64,000 bases of DNA, from assembly GCF_009733845.1 (NCBI RefSeq), contig NZ_WNXZ01000002.1, positions 372,001 to 436,000 of the forward strand. Direction: 5' to 3'. A model generated the notes under the pieces. It was given only the letters and a program-made list of their open reading frames with translations, did not search any database and was not told the DNA's origin. Positions 21,497-49,509 of the stretch are shown piece after piece; position 1 is the first letter of the stretch; each line of letters begins with the position of its first letter. This stretch comes from Pseudactinotalea terrae. GTDB taxonomy: Bacteria; Actinomycetota; Actinomycetes; Actinomycetales; Beutenbergiaceae. The position numbers were made by a program, and so were the translations under genes.

Positions 21497-21630
21497 CCGA
21501 TTTCAACGCACGTCTGACCACCCCAGCGACTTCAACGCACCTTCGACCGAGCGAGGTTGCAGTCGAGGCGCGGTCAGAAGTGCGGTGAAATCGGAAACCG
21601 GTCGAAAGTGCGTTGAAATCGGAGGGGTGG
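21496..21630. repeat. Double nested palindrome between metG and tatD
   Basis: Two left arms (CGATTTCAACGCACGTCTGACC near 21499; GACTTCAACGCACCTTCGACC near 21528) are followed by two right arms (GGTCAGAAGTGCGGTGAAATC near 21572; GGTCGAAAGTGCGTTGAAATC near 21600). The last 30 bases (21601-21630) are identical to 48290-48319 inside nadB. The right end contains GGAGGGG, which serves as the ribosome site of tatD. Confidence 0.85.
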
Positions 21631-29170: not shown

Positions 29171-29242
29171 TCCGCCCTGGTGTAACGGCAGCACGCCGGC
29201 CTTTGGTGCCGTGTGGTCCAGGTTCGAATCCTGGGGGCGGAG
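29171..29242 (+). tRNA. tRNA-Gln (anticodon TTG)
   Basis: A full cloverleaf can be drawn: acceptor TCCGCCC/GGGCGGA with discriminator G at 29242, D stem GTGT/GCAC, anticodon loop CTTTGGT giving TTG, and T stem CCAGG/CCTGG around TTCGAAT. The outer pair of the anticodon stem (27-43) is a C-T mismatch. No CCA is encoded. It lies just before glmU, a common actinobacterial arrangement. Confidence 0.93.
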
Positions 29243-33340: not shown

Positions 33341-34817
33341 CACGATCACGGTCGTCGGTGCTGGTCCCACTGGTCTGACGGCCGCGCTGGTACTGGCTCA
33401 CCACGGCATCCAGGCGCGGGTCCTCGACCGACGTGACGCGGCCAGCACTGCCTCCCGGGCGCTGGGTCTGCAGGCGCGGTCGATGGAGCTGCTCGCGATG
33501 CTCGGGGTGGCCGACCGGGTCGAGCAGACCGCCTATCGGCTCGCGGGCAGCTCCATCATGCGGGGCGAGCGCGTGGTCGCGAGGCAGCGCTGGTTCCCGC
33601 CGGACAGCCCGTACCCCTACACCTACGTGGTGCCGCAGCAGGGGCTCGAGACGATGCTGCGGGACCGGCTCGCCGAGCTCGGCGGAGCGGTCGAGTGGGG
33701 TCGCGCCGTGACCGGAGTCGCAGCCGACCCCTCCGGGGTGACGCTGCGCACTGCGGGCGATGGCGACCTGCGCGCCGACTGGGTGGTGGGCGCAGACGGT
33801 GCCGGCAGCACGATCCGGCAGGCCGCCGGCATCGCCTTCCCGGGCGAGCGCACCGGCGAGGTCTACCACCTGGCCGACGTCCGGTTTCGCAGCGACCCGG
33901 ATCTGGGCGACGGCGCGATGTGGCTGGGCGCGAGCGGGCCGCTGATGCTCATGCGGCTTCCCGACGACGGGCTCTGGCGGGTCTTCATCGACGTGACCGA
34001 CGAGGGCTCGGCACAGGCCGTCCGACCCGACAGGGCGTCGCTGCAGGCGCTCCTGGACCGGCGAGGTCCCGGCACGCTCGAGGTGCGGGAGGTCGGCTGG
34101 ACCTCGGTGTTCCGGAGCCGGTTGTGCCTCGCTGAGGCCTATCGTTCCGGACGGCTGCTGCTGGCCGGAGACGCCGCGCACGTCTTCCCACCCTTCGGCG
34201 GGCAGGGTATGAACCTCGGGATCCAGGATGCCGTCGGGCTCGCGTGGCGGCTGGCCCGGGTCGCCGACGGTGCGCCACCTGAGATGCTCGACGACTACGC
34301 CCGGGAACGTCGGGCCGTCGCGGCGACGGTGATCCGCGACGTCGGTGCGCGCCGCCGCATCTTCGCACTGCGGCACCCGCTCGCGCGGGCGTGGCGAGAT
34401 GTGATGCTCCGAGTGGTGAGCGCGTCATCGCTCGCGGCGCGCGCCGCGAGTCGCAGCACCTCCCAGATCGACCTGAGCTACCGGACCGGTCGCCGCACCG
34501 CCGCGCCTGCGCCGGGAGATCGCGCCCCGGACGCGCCGCTGCCGACCGGCTCGCTCCACGAGGCGTTCCGCGTCGACCATTTCGCGCTGCTCCGGATCGG
34601 CGCGTCGCCGGCGCTGCCGCCGCTACCGGAGCCGGTCACGGTGATCGACATCGACGACGACTCCGATCCCGATGGTGACGTGCGGCGCCGGTACCGCATG
34701 GACGCGGGGCTCGTGCTCGTGCGGCCGGACGGCCACATCGGCTACCGCGGCACCGACGTCGATTCCGTCGTCGCTGCCATCACAGCCTCGAGTCCCACCT
34801 ACGATCGGCAGTCGTGA
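33333..34817 (+). CDS. FAD-dependent aromatic hydroxylase (MhpA/Rox-like)
   Basis: A 494-residue class A flavin monooxygenase. It shows VVGAGPTGLTAALVLAHHG at residues 6-24, the DG motif VVGADGAGSTIRQ (about 150), the GD motif LLAGDAAHVFPPFGGQGMN (about 276) and a C-terminal thioredoxin-like tail beginning near PGDRAPDAPLP. The family includes MhpA, polyketide tailoring oxygenases and rifampicin monooxygenases, so either catabolism or drug inactivation is possible. The ATG at 33333 is inside the palindrome. The stop overlaps the TetR start by four bases (GTGA). Confidence 0.9.
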   Translation: MNDTITVVGAGPTGLTAALVLAHHGIQARVLDRRDAASTASRALGLQARSMELLAMLGVADRVEQTAYRLAGSSIMRGERVVARQRWFPPDSPYPYTYVVPQQGLETMLRDRLAELGGAVEWGRAVTGVAADPSGVTLRTAGDGDLRADWVVGADGAGSTIRQAAGIAFPGERTGEVYHLADVRFRSDPDLGDGAMWLGASGPLMLMRLPDDGLWRVFIDVTDEGSAQAVRPDRASLQALLDRRGPGTLEVREVGWTSVFRSRLCLAEAYRSGRLLLAGDAAHVFPPFGGQGMNLGIQDAVGLAWRLARVADGAPPEMLDDYARERRAVAATVIRDVGARRRIFALRHPLARAWRDVMLRVVSASSLAARAASRSTSQIDLSYRTGRRTAAPAPGDRAPDAPLPTGSLHEAFRVDHFALLRIGASPALPPLPEPVTVIDIDDDSDPDGDVRRRYRMDAGLVLVRPDGHIGYRGTDVDSVVAAITASSPTYDRQS

Positions 34818-35345
34818 GTGCACGTGAGCAGCTGCTGAGCCGGGTCGTCGACTGGTTCACGGAGAACGGGGTCGGAGACACCAGCCTGCGCACGGTGGCC
34901 GCCGGTGTGGGGAGCAGCCACCGGATGCTGCTCTACCACTTCGGGTCGCGCGAGGGGCTGCTGGCAGCCGTCGTCGACGCGACATGGGCGTCGCAGGAGC
35001 GCTACCTGGCCGAGATGCTCGAGGAGGGCCGCGACCCCTTCGAAGCGGGCTGGGAGTTCTGGAAGCGCCTCGCCGACGAGGCGCCTACGTTCGGGCCGCT
35101 CTTCTTCGAGCTGGCCGCGGCGGCCATGCACGGGCACGAGTGGGCCTCGTCGCTGCGCCGGTGGATCCAGGCCTGGCTCGAGAGCCTCACCGACTTCCAC
35201 GAGCGGGCGGGTCACCCGCCGGAGCGGGCCGAGGCCATCGCGTACGCAGCGCTCGCCCTCAGTCGGGGTGTCCTGTTCGACCTCGCGCTGGGTGGCGATC
35301 GTCGGCGTGCCGACGCGGCCGTCATGGAGTTCCTCACGGCGAACG

Positions 35346-35362
<17 letters not shown>
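34814..35362 (+). CDS. TetR-family regulator, candidate for the TGTACCAT operators
   Basis: A 182-residue regulator with the DNA-binding region TSLRTVAAGVGSSHRMLLYHF and a helical ligand domain. It is coupled to the monooxygenase gene (GTGA overlap), so it would be made only when the palindromic promoter is active, giving autoregulation. Its 3' end overlaps the convergent second monooxygenase gene by 17 bp. The assignment to the three operator sites is inferred from position only. Confidence 0.88.
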
Positions 35363-36790
<1,428 letters not shown>

Positions 36791-46638: not shown

Positions 46639-47492
46639 CGCACCTCGATGTCCAGCCCCAGGTCGAGCGACCGGATGCTGTGGGTCAGCGCGCCCACGCT
46701 GATCACGTCCACGCCGGTGGCCGCGATGGCTGCCACGGTCTCGAGCCGCACGTTGCCGCTGGCCTCGACGATCGCGCGGCCGTCGATCAGCGCGACCCCC
46801 TCGCGGAGTTGGTCGAGCGTGAAGTTGTCGAGCATGATCACGTCCACCCCGGCGGCGAGGACCGGCTCGATCTGCTCGATGCGGTCGACCTCGACCTCCA
46901 CGCTCGTGGTGTGCGGGATCCGGTCCCGGACCGCCCGCAGGGTCTGGGTGAGGTCAGCACCGGAGGCGAGCAGCACCGCCAGGTGGTTGTCCTTGACCAT
47001 GACGGCATCGGAGAGGCTGTAGCGATGGTTGTGCCCGCCGCCGGCGCGAACGGCGTGTCGCTCGAGGGCCCGCAGCCCTGGTGTGGTCTTGCGGGTGTCG
47101 ACCACGCGCGCCCCGGTGCCCGCGACCGCCGCCACGTACGCCGCGGTGGCCGTGGCGATCCCGCAGAGCCGCTGCGCGAAGTTCAGCGCGATCCGCTCCG
47201 CCTGCAGCACCCCGGCGGCCGGGCCCTCCACGCGCGCGAGCACGGTGCCCGCCTCGAACGCCTCGCCCTCGGCGACCAAGAGGTCGACCGCGATGCTCGC
47301 GCCCGTGAGCCGGAACGCAGCCTCGACGGCGGGACCACCAGCGAAGGTGCCGCCCTCGCGGGCGGTGAGCTCCGCCGTCGAGGTGGCCGACGGCGGCACG
47401 AGCGCCGCGCAGGTGAGGTCACCCCAGGGGGCGTCCTCGTGCAGCGCGCGAGCAACGATCTCGTCGACGACAGCGGGGAGCAGCTGGGTCAC
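46635..47492 (-). CDS. nadC: Nicotinate-nucleotide pyrophosphorylase (carboxylating)
   Basis: A 285-residue enzyme that turns quinolinate and PRPP into nicotinate mononucleotide. It has EDAPWGDLTCAALVPP, NFAQRLCGIATATAAYV, DTRKTTPGLRALERHAVRAG, NHRYSLSDAVMVKDNHL and VDVIMLDNF. The GTG at 47492 overlaps the stop of the SRPBCC gene by four bases. The length is normal. Confidence 0.95.
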   Translation of the reverse strand: MTQLLPAVVDEIVARALHEDAPWGDLTCAALVPPSATSTAELTAREGGTFAGGPAVEAAFRLTGASIAVDLLVAEGEAFEAGTVLARVEGPAAGVLQAERIALNFAQRLCGIATATAAYVAAVAGTGARVVDTRKTTPGLRALERHAVRAGGGHNHRYSLSDAVMVKDNHLAVLLASGADLTQTLRAVRDRIPHTTSVEVEVDRIEQIEPVLAAGVDVIMLDNFTLDQLREGVALIDGRAIVEASGNVRLETVAAIAATGVDVISVGALTHSIRSLDLGLDIEVR

Positions 47493-47935
47493 GCGCCCGC
47501 CTCCGCCAAGGCGGCGAGCCGGGAGATCGAGGCTGCGAGGTGCTCGGCCGTGGTCGAGCGGGCCTTGTCGAACCGCTTGGCGTCGGTGAGGTTCGTCCAG
47601 TCGTAGACGTGCCGCACGAGCGTGCCGCCCTCGACCGGCTCGAGCTCCCAGCGCCACTCGTGACCGGGCTCGGGCTCGCCGGTGGGCGCGGGACGCCACG
47701 CGATCACCCGGCCCTCCTCGAAGGCGACCACGCGGTTGGGGCGCGGGGTGCCTTTCGTCAGCGTCACGGTGAACACGTCGCCGACAGCCCGCACCCGTTG
47801 GCCCTGCTCGGCCACGGCGAGGTTGTCGTTACCGTCCCACTCGGGCTGCCGCGCCGGGTCGGCGATCAGCTCGAAGATCGCCTCGGCCGGCGCGCGCACG
47901 ACGCGCTCGGAGGTCACCACGGTCGTCTCGGTCAT
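47489..47935 (-). CDS. SRPBCC family protein inside the nad operon
   Basis: A 148-residue SRPBCC protein: VVRAPAEAIFELIADPARQP, a central VGDVFTVTLTKGTPRPNRVV, and EWRWELEPVEGGTLVRHVYD, then a C-terminal helix. It is translationally tied to nadC (overlap of four bases) and lies 14 bp after nadB, so it is expressed with NAD synthesis. The family binds hydrophobic ligands; no link to NAD is known to me, so this may be a passenger or an unrecognised helper. Confidence 0.85.
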   Translation of the reverse strand: MTETTVVTSERVVRAPAEAIFELIADPARQPEWDGNDNLAVAEQGQRVRAVGDVFTVTLTKGTPRPNRVVAFEEGRVIAWRPAPTGEPEPGHEWRWELEPVEGGTLVRHVYDWTNLTDAKRFDKARSTTAEHLAASISRLAALAEAGA

Positions 47936-47949
47936 TCCTCGTGCCTCTC

Positions 47950-49509
47950 TCAGACGGACAGCAGAACGGGCGACGCTGACGCGGTGGCTGGGTCGTCGCT
48001 TCGGAAGTGTGCTCCGACCGAGGTGGTCCGAGCCAGTGCCGCCTGCGCGCAGGCATGCGCGATCAGCAGCAGGTTCGCGTCCTCGTGAGAGGCGCGGTCG
48101 GTGGGCTGCGGCGCCGCGGCCAGCCACCCGGAGAGCGTCTCGACGGCCTCGGCGAGCTTCTCGCCGTCGCGAACCAGCCCGACGGCGTCCCACATCACCT
48201 GCTGGATCGCCGCCCGGCTCACCCCCACCCCCGATTTCAAAGCACTTTTGACACCGTCTCGGGTGGTGAGACCTTCTCGTCCCACGGATGTCGAAAGTGC
48301 GTTGAAATCGGAGGGGTGGGGGGTGGCGGGCCAGTGCTCCAGGTCGGCGAGGGCCAGGGCGGCGCGGTGCCCGAAGACGGCGCCCTCGAGCAGGGAGTTG
48401 GAGGCGAGCCGGTTGGCGCCGTGCACGCCGGTGCGGGCGCACTCGCCGATCGCGAACAGCCCGGGCACGCTGGTGCGGCCGTGCAGGTCGGTGGCGATCC
48501 CGCCCATCCAGTAGTGCGCCGCCGGCGTGATCGGCACCGGCTCCTGCGCCCAGTCCAGCCCGGCGGCGCGCACCGCGGCGTCGATGCTGGGGAAGCGCTC
48601 GGCGAGGAAGCCGGCACCCAGCGCCGTGGCGTCGAGCGTGACCGGCACGCCGCCCTGACGGGTCATCTCGGCGAACACCGCACGCGCCACCACGTCGCGA
48701 GGAGCGAGCTCGGCGCCCTCGACCTCGGTCATGAACCGTTCGCCCTCGGCGTTCCGGAGCACCGCGCCCTCGCCGCGGACCGCCTCGGAGACCAGGAAGT
48801 TGCCGGCACGCGCCAGCGTGGTGGGGTGGAACTGGTACAGCTCCACGTCCGCGATCCTCGCGCCGACCCGCGCAGCGCAGGCGACGCCGTCGCCAGTAGC
48901 TGCGGGCGGGTTCGAGGTGTACGGGTAGAGCTGGCCCGCGCCCCCGGTGGCGAGGACCACGGCGTCGGCGTCGAAACGGTCGCGAGCGCCGCCGTCGAGC
49001 TCGACATCGGCGCCGACGACCCGGCTGCCCGGGCCGCGCTCGGTCAGCAAGGACAGCAGGAACGCGTGCTCGTGGATGGTGACGTGCCGCTCCCGGAGCC
49101 GTGCGACCAGGGCTGCCTCGATGACGGCGCCGGTCGCGTCGCCACCCGCGTGCAGCACGCGGGGGTAGGAGTGGGCGGCCTCGAGACCGCGCGAGAGCTC
49201 GCCGTCGCGGGAGTCGAAGGCGACGCCGAGGGCGATCAGCTCGTGGATGCGGTCCGGGCCCTCGGCGCACAGCACACGCACGGCCTCGGGGTCGCAGAGC
49301 CCGGCGCCGGCCGCGAGCGTGTCGGAGATGTGGGACTCGACCGAGTCGTCGCTGAAGACCGCTGCCGCGACCCCGCCCTGGGCGTAGCGCGTGTTGGAGC
49401 TCCCGAGCTCGCCCTTGGTGACCACCAGCACCTCGTGGCCGGCGTCGGCGGCGTCCAGCGCGAGCGACAGGCCCGCGATGCCGGACCCGACCACGAGCAC
49501 GCGGGTCAT
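47950..49509 (-). CDS. nadB: L-aspartate oxidase with in-frame palindromic insert
   Basis: A 519-residue flavoenzyme that oxidises aspartate to iminoaspartate, the first step of NAD synthesis. It shows VLVVGSGIAGLSLALDAADA, SSNTRYAQGGVAAA, LATGGAGQLYPYTSNP, QFHPTTLARAG and GECARTGVHGANRLASNSLLEG. Between this FAD domain and the helical domain (SRAAIQQVMWDAVGLVRDG) lies an extra stretch of about 30 residues (about 397-428) coded by the palindromic repeat at 48225-48319. The frame is kept and no stop arises. The ATG at 49509 overlaps the nadA stop. Confidence 0.94.
   Translation of the reverse strand: MTRVLVVGSGIAGLSLALDAADAGHEVLVVTKGELGSSNTRYAQGGVAAAVFSDDSVESHISDTLAAGAGLCDPEAVRVLCAEGPDRIHELIALGVAFDSRDGELSRGLEAAHSYPRVLHAGGDATGAVIEAALVARLRERHVTIHEHAFLLSLLTERGPGSRVVGADVELDGGARDRFDADAVVLATGGAGQLYPYTSNPPAATGDGVACAARVGARIADVELYQFHPTTLARAGNFLVSEAVRGEGAVLRNAEGERFMTEVEGAELAPRDVVARAVFAEMTRQGGVPVTLDATALGAGFLAERFPSIDAAVRAAGLDWAQEPVPITPAAHYWMGGIATDLHGRTSVPGLFAIGECARTGVHGANRLASNSLLEGAVFGHRAALALADLEHWPATPHPSDFNALSTSVGREGLTTRDGVKSALKSGVGVSRAAIQQVMWDAVGLVRDGEKLAEAVETLSGWLAAAPQPTDRASHEDANLLLIAHACAQAALARTTSVGAHFRSDDPATASASPVLLSV
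48225..48319. repeat. Palindromic element inserted in nadB
   Basis: A left arm of 29 bases (48225-48253, with CCGATTTCAAAGCACTTTTGACA) pairs with a right arm of 31 bases (48289-48319, with TGTCGAAAGTGCGTTGAAAT) with few mismatches; GTCTC/GAGAC forms an inner hairpin. The right arm is identical over 30 bases (48290-48319) to 21601-21630 between metG and tatD. In nadB it adds a peptide in a domain linker. Confidence 0.88.

Follow-up and report, generated by a model that had tools for sequence, protein, structure and literature searches.

In the REPIN-RAYT system, short extragenic repeats are dispersed through one genome as inverted pairs, and each repeat family goes with a gene that it flanks; as far as the consulted text of that work describes it, the single unit is an imperfect palindrome and the partner is a tyrosine transposase (PMC3116915). 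GTAG/CGTC REPs lie between convergent or codirectional genes, downstream of coding regions and in some cases within genes, and the consulted sections of the same source also describe one REP super-family that has no dedicated transposase (PMC3733652). Rickettsia palindromic elements (RPEs) are ∼150 bp long, and an excerpted account counts 44 integrations in R. conorii genes (PMC10969869). On the side of the nucleases, MTES_1575 is described as a Vsr-fold restriction endonuclease in the available text of another study (PMC3710099).

Here, we describe a repeat family, first seen as a palindrome in nadB of Pseudactinotalea terrae, that shares features with these systems. Like REPINs, it consists of over-represented, extragenic inverted pairs within one genome and accompanies a gene that has the repeat on both sides; unlike them, as they appear in the consulted text, its candidate partner is a predicted AbiEi-DUF559 PD-(D/E)XK-type nuclease instead of a tyrosine transposase, no RAYT flanked by the repeat was found, and the unit is not itself palindromic but forms arrays whose arms can flank native DNA (PMC3116915). 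Its placement is that of GTAG/CGTC REPs, past the ends of coding regions in convergent and codirectional gene pairs and occasionally within genes, but its unit, array architecture, and partner gene differ from those in the sections consulted (PMC3733652). REPINs and REPs are thus the closest kind in behavior, and the family falls outside them on its transposase and its unit. On balance, we favor the reading that the nadB palindrome is a genus-specific, REP-like repeat whose units would most likely be recognition sites of a selfish AbiEi-DUF559 nuclease, which would also have spread them.

The palindrome in nadB

The window analyzed is a stretch of 64,000 nucleotides from P. terrae (contig NZ_WNXZ01000002.1, positions 372,001 to 436,000); the genome from which it derives is labeled G000, and two congeners are labeled G001 and G002. 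The nadB gene (47950 to 49509, minus strand, called by script) encodes L-aspartate oxidase (TIGR00551, 492 bits against a cut-off of 452.75), and its frame is intact through the repeat. A first-pass annotation had placed a palindrome with arms of about 30 bases at 48225 to 48319, and this palindrome is real. Inverted-repeat detection returned 32-nt arms (48222 to 48253 and 48289 to 48320) that are 84% complementary and 35 nt apart, the whole palindrome (48222 to 48320) including complementary C-rich and G-rich flanking bases. Folding of 48215 to 48330 and of 48225 to 48319 gave z-scores of −7.5 and −8.0, and 0 of 200 shuffles were equally good. The core arms are 20 bp long, each a single repeat unit: the left at 48233 to 48252 on the plus strand, with two mismatches to GATTTCAACGCACTTTCGAC, and the right at 48290 to 48309 on the minus strand, an exact GATTTCAACGCACTTTCGAC. 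The reported identity of 30 bases (48290 to 48319) with an intergenic stretch at 21601 to 21630 was confirmed. Rfam at gathering thresholds gave no match at the palindrome, and a known RNA family was rejected as its identity; the sole Rfam match in the window is a tRNA (29171 to 29242).

The sequence between the arms (48253 to 48289) is near-identical in G002, and G001 is too diverged there to tell native linker from other sequence. Between G000 and G002, the element is identical at 98 of 103 positions and the remainder of nadB at 1,381 of 1,454. Given this equal divergence, the copy is older than the species split and is not specially conserved. Between nadB and nadC lies an SRPBCC-like gene (47489 to 47935; named by reading only).

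The annotation had further proposed that the palindrome was inserted as one block that added some 30 residues without a stop. nadB is indeed open throughout, but the linker (counted from just past NSLLE[AG]AVF up to the MW region) has 56 residues in G000 and G002 and 45 in the repeat-free congener G001, a difference of 11 that stays within the family range: 44 to 77 residues were measured by script in 15 other family members, with 3 of the 21 surveyed sequences left out as unmeasured or misparsed. The corresponding linker of Escherichia coli NadB is about as long. No empty nadB site of the element's length was found in the family alignment or the linker comparison, and the alignment with relatives, which shows no clean gap of that length, does not bear out one-block insertion. 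Because the linker is naturally this variable, we take the element to have replaced part of it; the nadB palindrome is a dispersed repeat tolerated in frame within an interdomain linker.

Variable length across the family and the lack of a clean gap are also what normal nadB linker, palindromic by chance, would give. We regard that explanation as highly improbable, since the 20-mer to which the arms belong has 39 matches across the genome (control, 0), and the existence of a genome-wide family refutes it. The annotation had itself named, as an outcome that would refute its reading, the presence of the same stretch in relatives of all kinds; the unit core is missing from 21 of 21 genomes of the family that lie outside the genus. 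Its comparison with RPEs extends to a palindromic repeat lying in frame in a metabolic gene and fails beyond that: here, no discrete in-frame block is seen, 11 of the 13 clusters in G000 are intergenic and 2 are inside genes, the arms are separable, and those in an OtnK-like gene flank native coding DNA, a distinction drawn from placement and structure and set against an excerpted description (PMC10969869).

The repeat family and its placement

A genome-wide count of the 20-mer GATTTCAACGCACTTTCGAC gave 39 matches (at most three mismatches) in 13 clusters of G000, against none for the reversed control pattern. Six matches fall in the window, compared with 0 in 100 shuffles. Four of these, at 21499 to 21620, form an intergenic cluster delimited by unit search and gene calls: the left arm (21499 to 21547, plus strand) has two units 29 bp apart, the first of them 2 bp past a stop codon, and the right arm (21573 to 21620, minus strand) has two units 28 bp apart, ahead of the next gene. 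A single unit GATTTCAACGCACTTTCGAC folds at 0 kcal/mol, i.e., it is non-palindromic. Arrays have a period of ∼28 bp (26 to 31) with 1 to 6 units per arm, and up to 9 at one further G001 locus; the nadB copy is a minimal family member, with one unit per arm.

The arrays have a marked polarity. Among 51 clusters tabulated from stretches of G000, G002, and G001, 32 occupy both strands, and every one of the 32 runs plus then minus, so that the units point inward. Two further G001 clusters (L195:2759-2898 and L199:2462-2516) have the reverse, outward order, and the family also includes lone arms with no partner arm. Arms of one cluster are no more alike than arms of different clusters: in G000 and G002, the observed likeness was attained by 225 and 1,354 of 2,000 permutations. 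Strict pairing is therefore not conserved in this genus. Eukaryotic foldback (FB/TU) elements have inverted arms of tandem short subrepeats around variable contents. The likeness is one of architecture, and the family described here differs in being bacterial, much smaller, and accompanied by a candidate partner nuclease.

The unit core was detected in 3 of 24 family genomes, all within the genus, and the tandem unit pattern in 3 of 396 genomes of the order (109 genera), again only in this genus. The tandem pattern had no exact match in viral contigs, and a viral origin of the repeats is not supported.

The units prefer gene ends. In G000 and G002, where loci common to both genomes were counted twice, 39 of 43 tabulated clusters are intergenic, 24 of them between convergent genes, 15 between codirectional genes, and none between divergent genes; the background over 516 kb of contig C8 of G000 is 79 convergent, 287 codirectional, and 79 divergent pairs of 445. 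With genes called by a simple codon-usage script, unit and stop codon match in orientation in 56 cases in the same two genomes, and in 49 of these the outermost unit is no more than 20 bp from the stop codon; at 7 other stop codons, the facing unit has the opposite orientation. Convergent gaps are short in general (median, 21 bp), so the closeness of units to stop codons is partly forced.

AbiEi-type domains bind inverted repeats to regulate. The arrays might accordingly be operators or 3′-end signals, standing past stop codons as bidirectional terminators or mRNA ends and kept by host selection. The convergent and codirectional bias, the 49 of 56 stop codons with a nearby unit, and the AbiEi similarity of the nuclease's N-terminal part are all as this explanation predicts, but several observations are not: there are copies within nadB and the OtnK-like gene as well as lone arms, the sequence is restricted to one genus, different nucleases have different repeats, and short convergent gaps would account for some of the stop codon proximity anyway. 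We therefore judge it rather unlikely.

Some clusters, including that in nadB, are common to G000 and G002. Clusters 11, 14, 15, 18, 19, and 24 are present in G002 where the G000 site is empty, and cluster 33 is the reverse case (G002 cluster 12 was left out of this comparison). No target-site duplication was seen in the empty-site alignments read between the two genomes, in which the surrounding intergenic sequence has diverged. Two other arrangements were noted, with gene names assigned by reading. At C8:82649-84041 of G000, a peptidase-like gene has a hairpin on each side, possibly from another repeat family of this genome; in the window, at 34153 to 35962, two similar FAD-monooxygenase-like genes stand in opposite orientation around a TetR-like gene and form an inverted repeat that belongs to the null set.

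The in-gene loci number two, each common to G000 and G002: nadB and a gene for an OtnK-like kinase (C8:94725-96035 of G000, L102:2726-4036; PF07005 and PF17042). In the kinase, the protein stretches that the arms encode, RFQRTFDHDPISTHLRP and VDSALKSESGRKCVEI, are separated by a segment with a conserved GSGGLS motif, which reads GSGGLS or GAGGLS in aligned homologues of other genera; the loops themselves vary in length among homologues. As the arms stand on both sides of this conserved segment, they flank native DNA.

Nuclease genes between arrays

Array pairs 0.5 to 1.2 kb apart enclose different genes, namely, a glyoxalase-like gene (L090), a LacI gene (L091), and, in G002, a DUF559 gene. 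With the content between arms being any of these or almost nothing, insertion of a whole element with fixed cargo was rejected as the general case. Around the glyoxalase-like gene (L090:2236-3040, contig C36 of G001), unit variants are, by reading, mirrored in order on the two sides. A family search found nine DUF559 genes in the genus, which lie between inward arrays in two of two cases in G001 (L189 and L190), two of five in G002 (L088 and L211), and none of two in G000; the remaining five have no flanking arrays.

Nuclease A (L088 in G002) and its orthologue in G001 (L189) occupy the same locus, with LacI and amylase neighbors, and each is flanked by arrays of the common unit of its own genome. 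Nuclease B (L190, G001) is flanked by a 29-bp unit beginning TTTCAACCCACTTCTGCC, and nuclease C (L211, G002) by a 28-bp unit beginning TTTCAACACGATTCCGTCC. The C unit has 80 matches in G002, the genome that has nuclease C, compared with 6 in G000 and 1 in G001, all 7 of which carry three mismatches (control, 0). The nnrD-alr boundary is occupied in G001 by nuclease B and its B arrays (L190, C22) and in G002 by an A-type cluster with no nuclease (L099, C16:185020-185261, cluster 21). At the OtnK-like locus, G002 has a C-type unit in the outermost left position, where G000 has one of the A type.

The common unit and its nuclease are co-inherited except in G000, where nuclease A has no match at an E value of 1e-10 despite the 39 units. 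For this reason, we read the G000 copies as relics of a nuclease that this genome has probably lost. An empty nuclease A locus was not found in G000, its LacI and amylase neighbors being unmatched in the G000 DNA compared.

The candidate partner proteins, encoded outside the window, combine two domains. The N-terminal region is an AbiEi-like winged helix (Pfam AbiEi_4 above cut-off in three of five proteins), and PADLOC AbiEi models match all four of the nuclease proteins given, with a best E value of 5.6e-16. The C-terminal DUF559 domain is above cut-off in five of five, and D228, E239, D241, and G242 are invariant in all seven aligned proteins. From these matches, we predict a Vsr-like PD-(D/E)XK nuclease with an AbiEi-like N-terminal domain. 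The nuclease domain resembles those of the DUF559/MTES_1575 Vsr-fold group, the MTES_1575 similarity falling below the Pfam cut-off, but there the domain is part of a large conflict-system protein, and the available text of that study does not mention dispersed flanking repeats (PMC3710099). No paper tying DUF559 to flanking repeats was found in the open-licence literature searched, as far as its accessible text extends.

We suggest that the AbiEi-like winged helix would bind the repeat units and that the Vsr-like PD-(D/E)XK (DUF559) domain would nick or cut the DNA, after which repair would copy units onto the 3′ ends on both sides of the break. The outcome would be inward arrays that face each other across native or filler DNA; copies would persist between genes, mostly just past stop codons, and rarely in frame in interdomain loops such as the nadB linker. 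Copying onto both 3′ ends is proposed because it gives inward arrays, in unequal numbers, around native DNA, an outcome that one-block insertion lacks. From these arrangements, we infer that the nuclease spreads the repeats. The arrays around non-nuclease genes (glyoxalase-like, L090; LacI, L091) count against the nuclease model, as do the 39 units of G000, where nuclease A has no match, the five unflanked DUF559 genes of the genus, the eight loci outside the genus that fall under the flank threshold used below, the arm likeness that is no greater within clusters than between them, and the two G001 clusters of outward order.

Those same arrays would be expected if the family were an ordinary miniature element or REPIN, with the hairpin moving as a block through a transposase acting in trans and the nuclease a passenger or defense gene that landed between repeats. 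Inverted pairs, extragenic bias, REPIN-like copy numbers, and the presence/absence differences between G000 and G002 fit as well. Nuclease genes between inward arrays are at most candidates for the parent element, with the same ends and a mobility gene, that a MITE would have. We nevertheless consider this explanation unlikely. A search for Y1/RAYT transposases (PF01797, E value of 0.001), the one kind of transposase sought, matched 0 of 3 genus genomes compared with 5 of 14 control genomes, and RAYT was rejected as the partner on this basis. Moreover, the OtnK-like arms flank native sequence, the empty sites read, in diverged surroundings, showed no target duplication, each of nucleases A, B, and C comes with a unit of its own, and nuclease paralogues in genus g18 (below) have different hairpins.

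Inverted repeats around related nucleases beyond the genus

At an E value of 1e-10, the 119 genomes sampled from the order include 21 with a match to nuclease A (one of them G002), spread over 18 of 56 genera. For each match, the 1,100 bp upstream was compared with the reverse complement of the 1,100 bp downstream, and scores of at least 20 were counted as inverted flanks. By this measure, 20 of 28 returned loci outside the genus have inverted flanks, compared with 0 of 34 control loci (41 candidates, of which the 34 long enough were used, some mutually overlapping; Mann-Whitney p = 5e-8). Ordinary genes on C8 of G000 reach the score in 8 of 444 cases, some through paralogous coding DNA. Two of the eight loci under the threshold, L224 and L239, have 31-bp arrays by TRF. 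In g18, 28 of 30 loci (24 taken first and 6 added later) score at least 20, and the other two are pieces of one broken copy, bringing the total outside the genus to 47 of 57 loci, one of which is common to both sets. The repeats themselves are hairpins of ∼50 to 100 bp, several next to the stop codons of neighboring genes, or arrays of ∼22 or 31 bp.

Within g18, four of 12 genomes have 37, 40, 38, and 52 matches to one hairpin arm, and the remaining eight have 0 to 1 (reversed control, 0 to 2). The four are exactly those whose best nuclease match is 67 to 100% identical, a line drawn after the data were seen; three of the other genomes have nucleases 63 to 64% identical together with other hairpins, and five have distant matches only. 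Across nine g18 loci, nuclease similarity correlates with arm similarity (Mantel r = 0.67; 0 of 5,000 permutations as high), as would also be expected from shared descent. Paralogues within one g18 genome have different arms (L258/L269 and L259/L270). In the hairpins of other genera, 20 double changes were counted against 110 broken pairs over 20 loci, or against 49 once L221, L237, L258, and L261, judged out of register, are set aside, a weak signal of compensatory change on which no conclusion here depends.

More tentatively, these loci may belong to a widespread class of actinobacterial selfish elements, each pairing an AbiEi-DUF559 nuclease with inverted repeats of its own. The nuclease would spread its units by making a cut whose two ends are then both extended along a template, and units would build up as inward-facing arrays or hairpins around native DNA, at gene ends and now and then in frame in proteins. 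Such a system would resemble REPINs but use a restriction-type nuclease where they use a transposase. Dispersed palindromes with no known mobilizer occur in bacterial genomes. Should a restriction-type nuclease act in place of RAYT, unexplained actinobacterial repeats and DUF559, a domain of unknown function, would explain each other, and binding or cutting would be expected to be specific, each nuclease acting on the repeat that flanks it and sparing the one that flanks its paralogue. The copies within genes also illustrate a route by which such repeats enter proteins, namely, interdomain loops.
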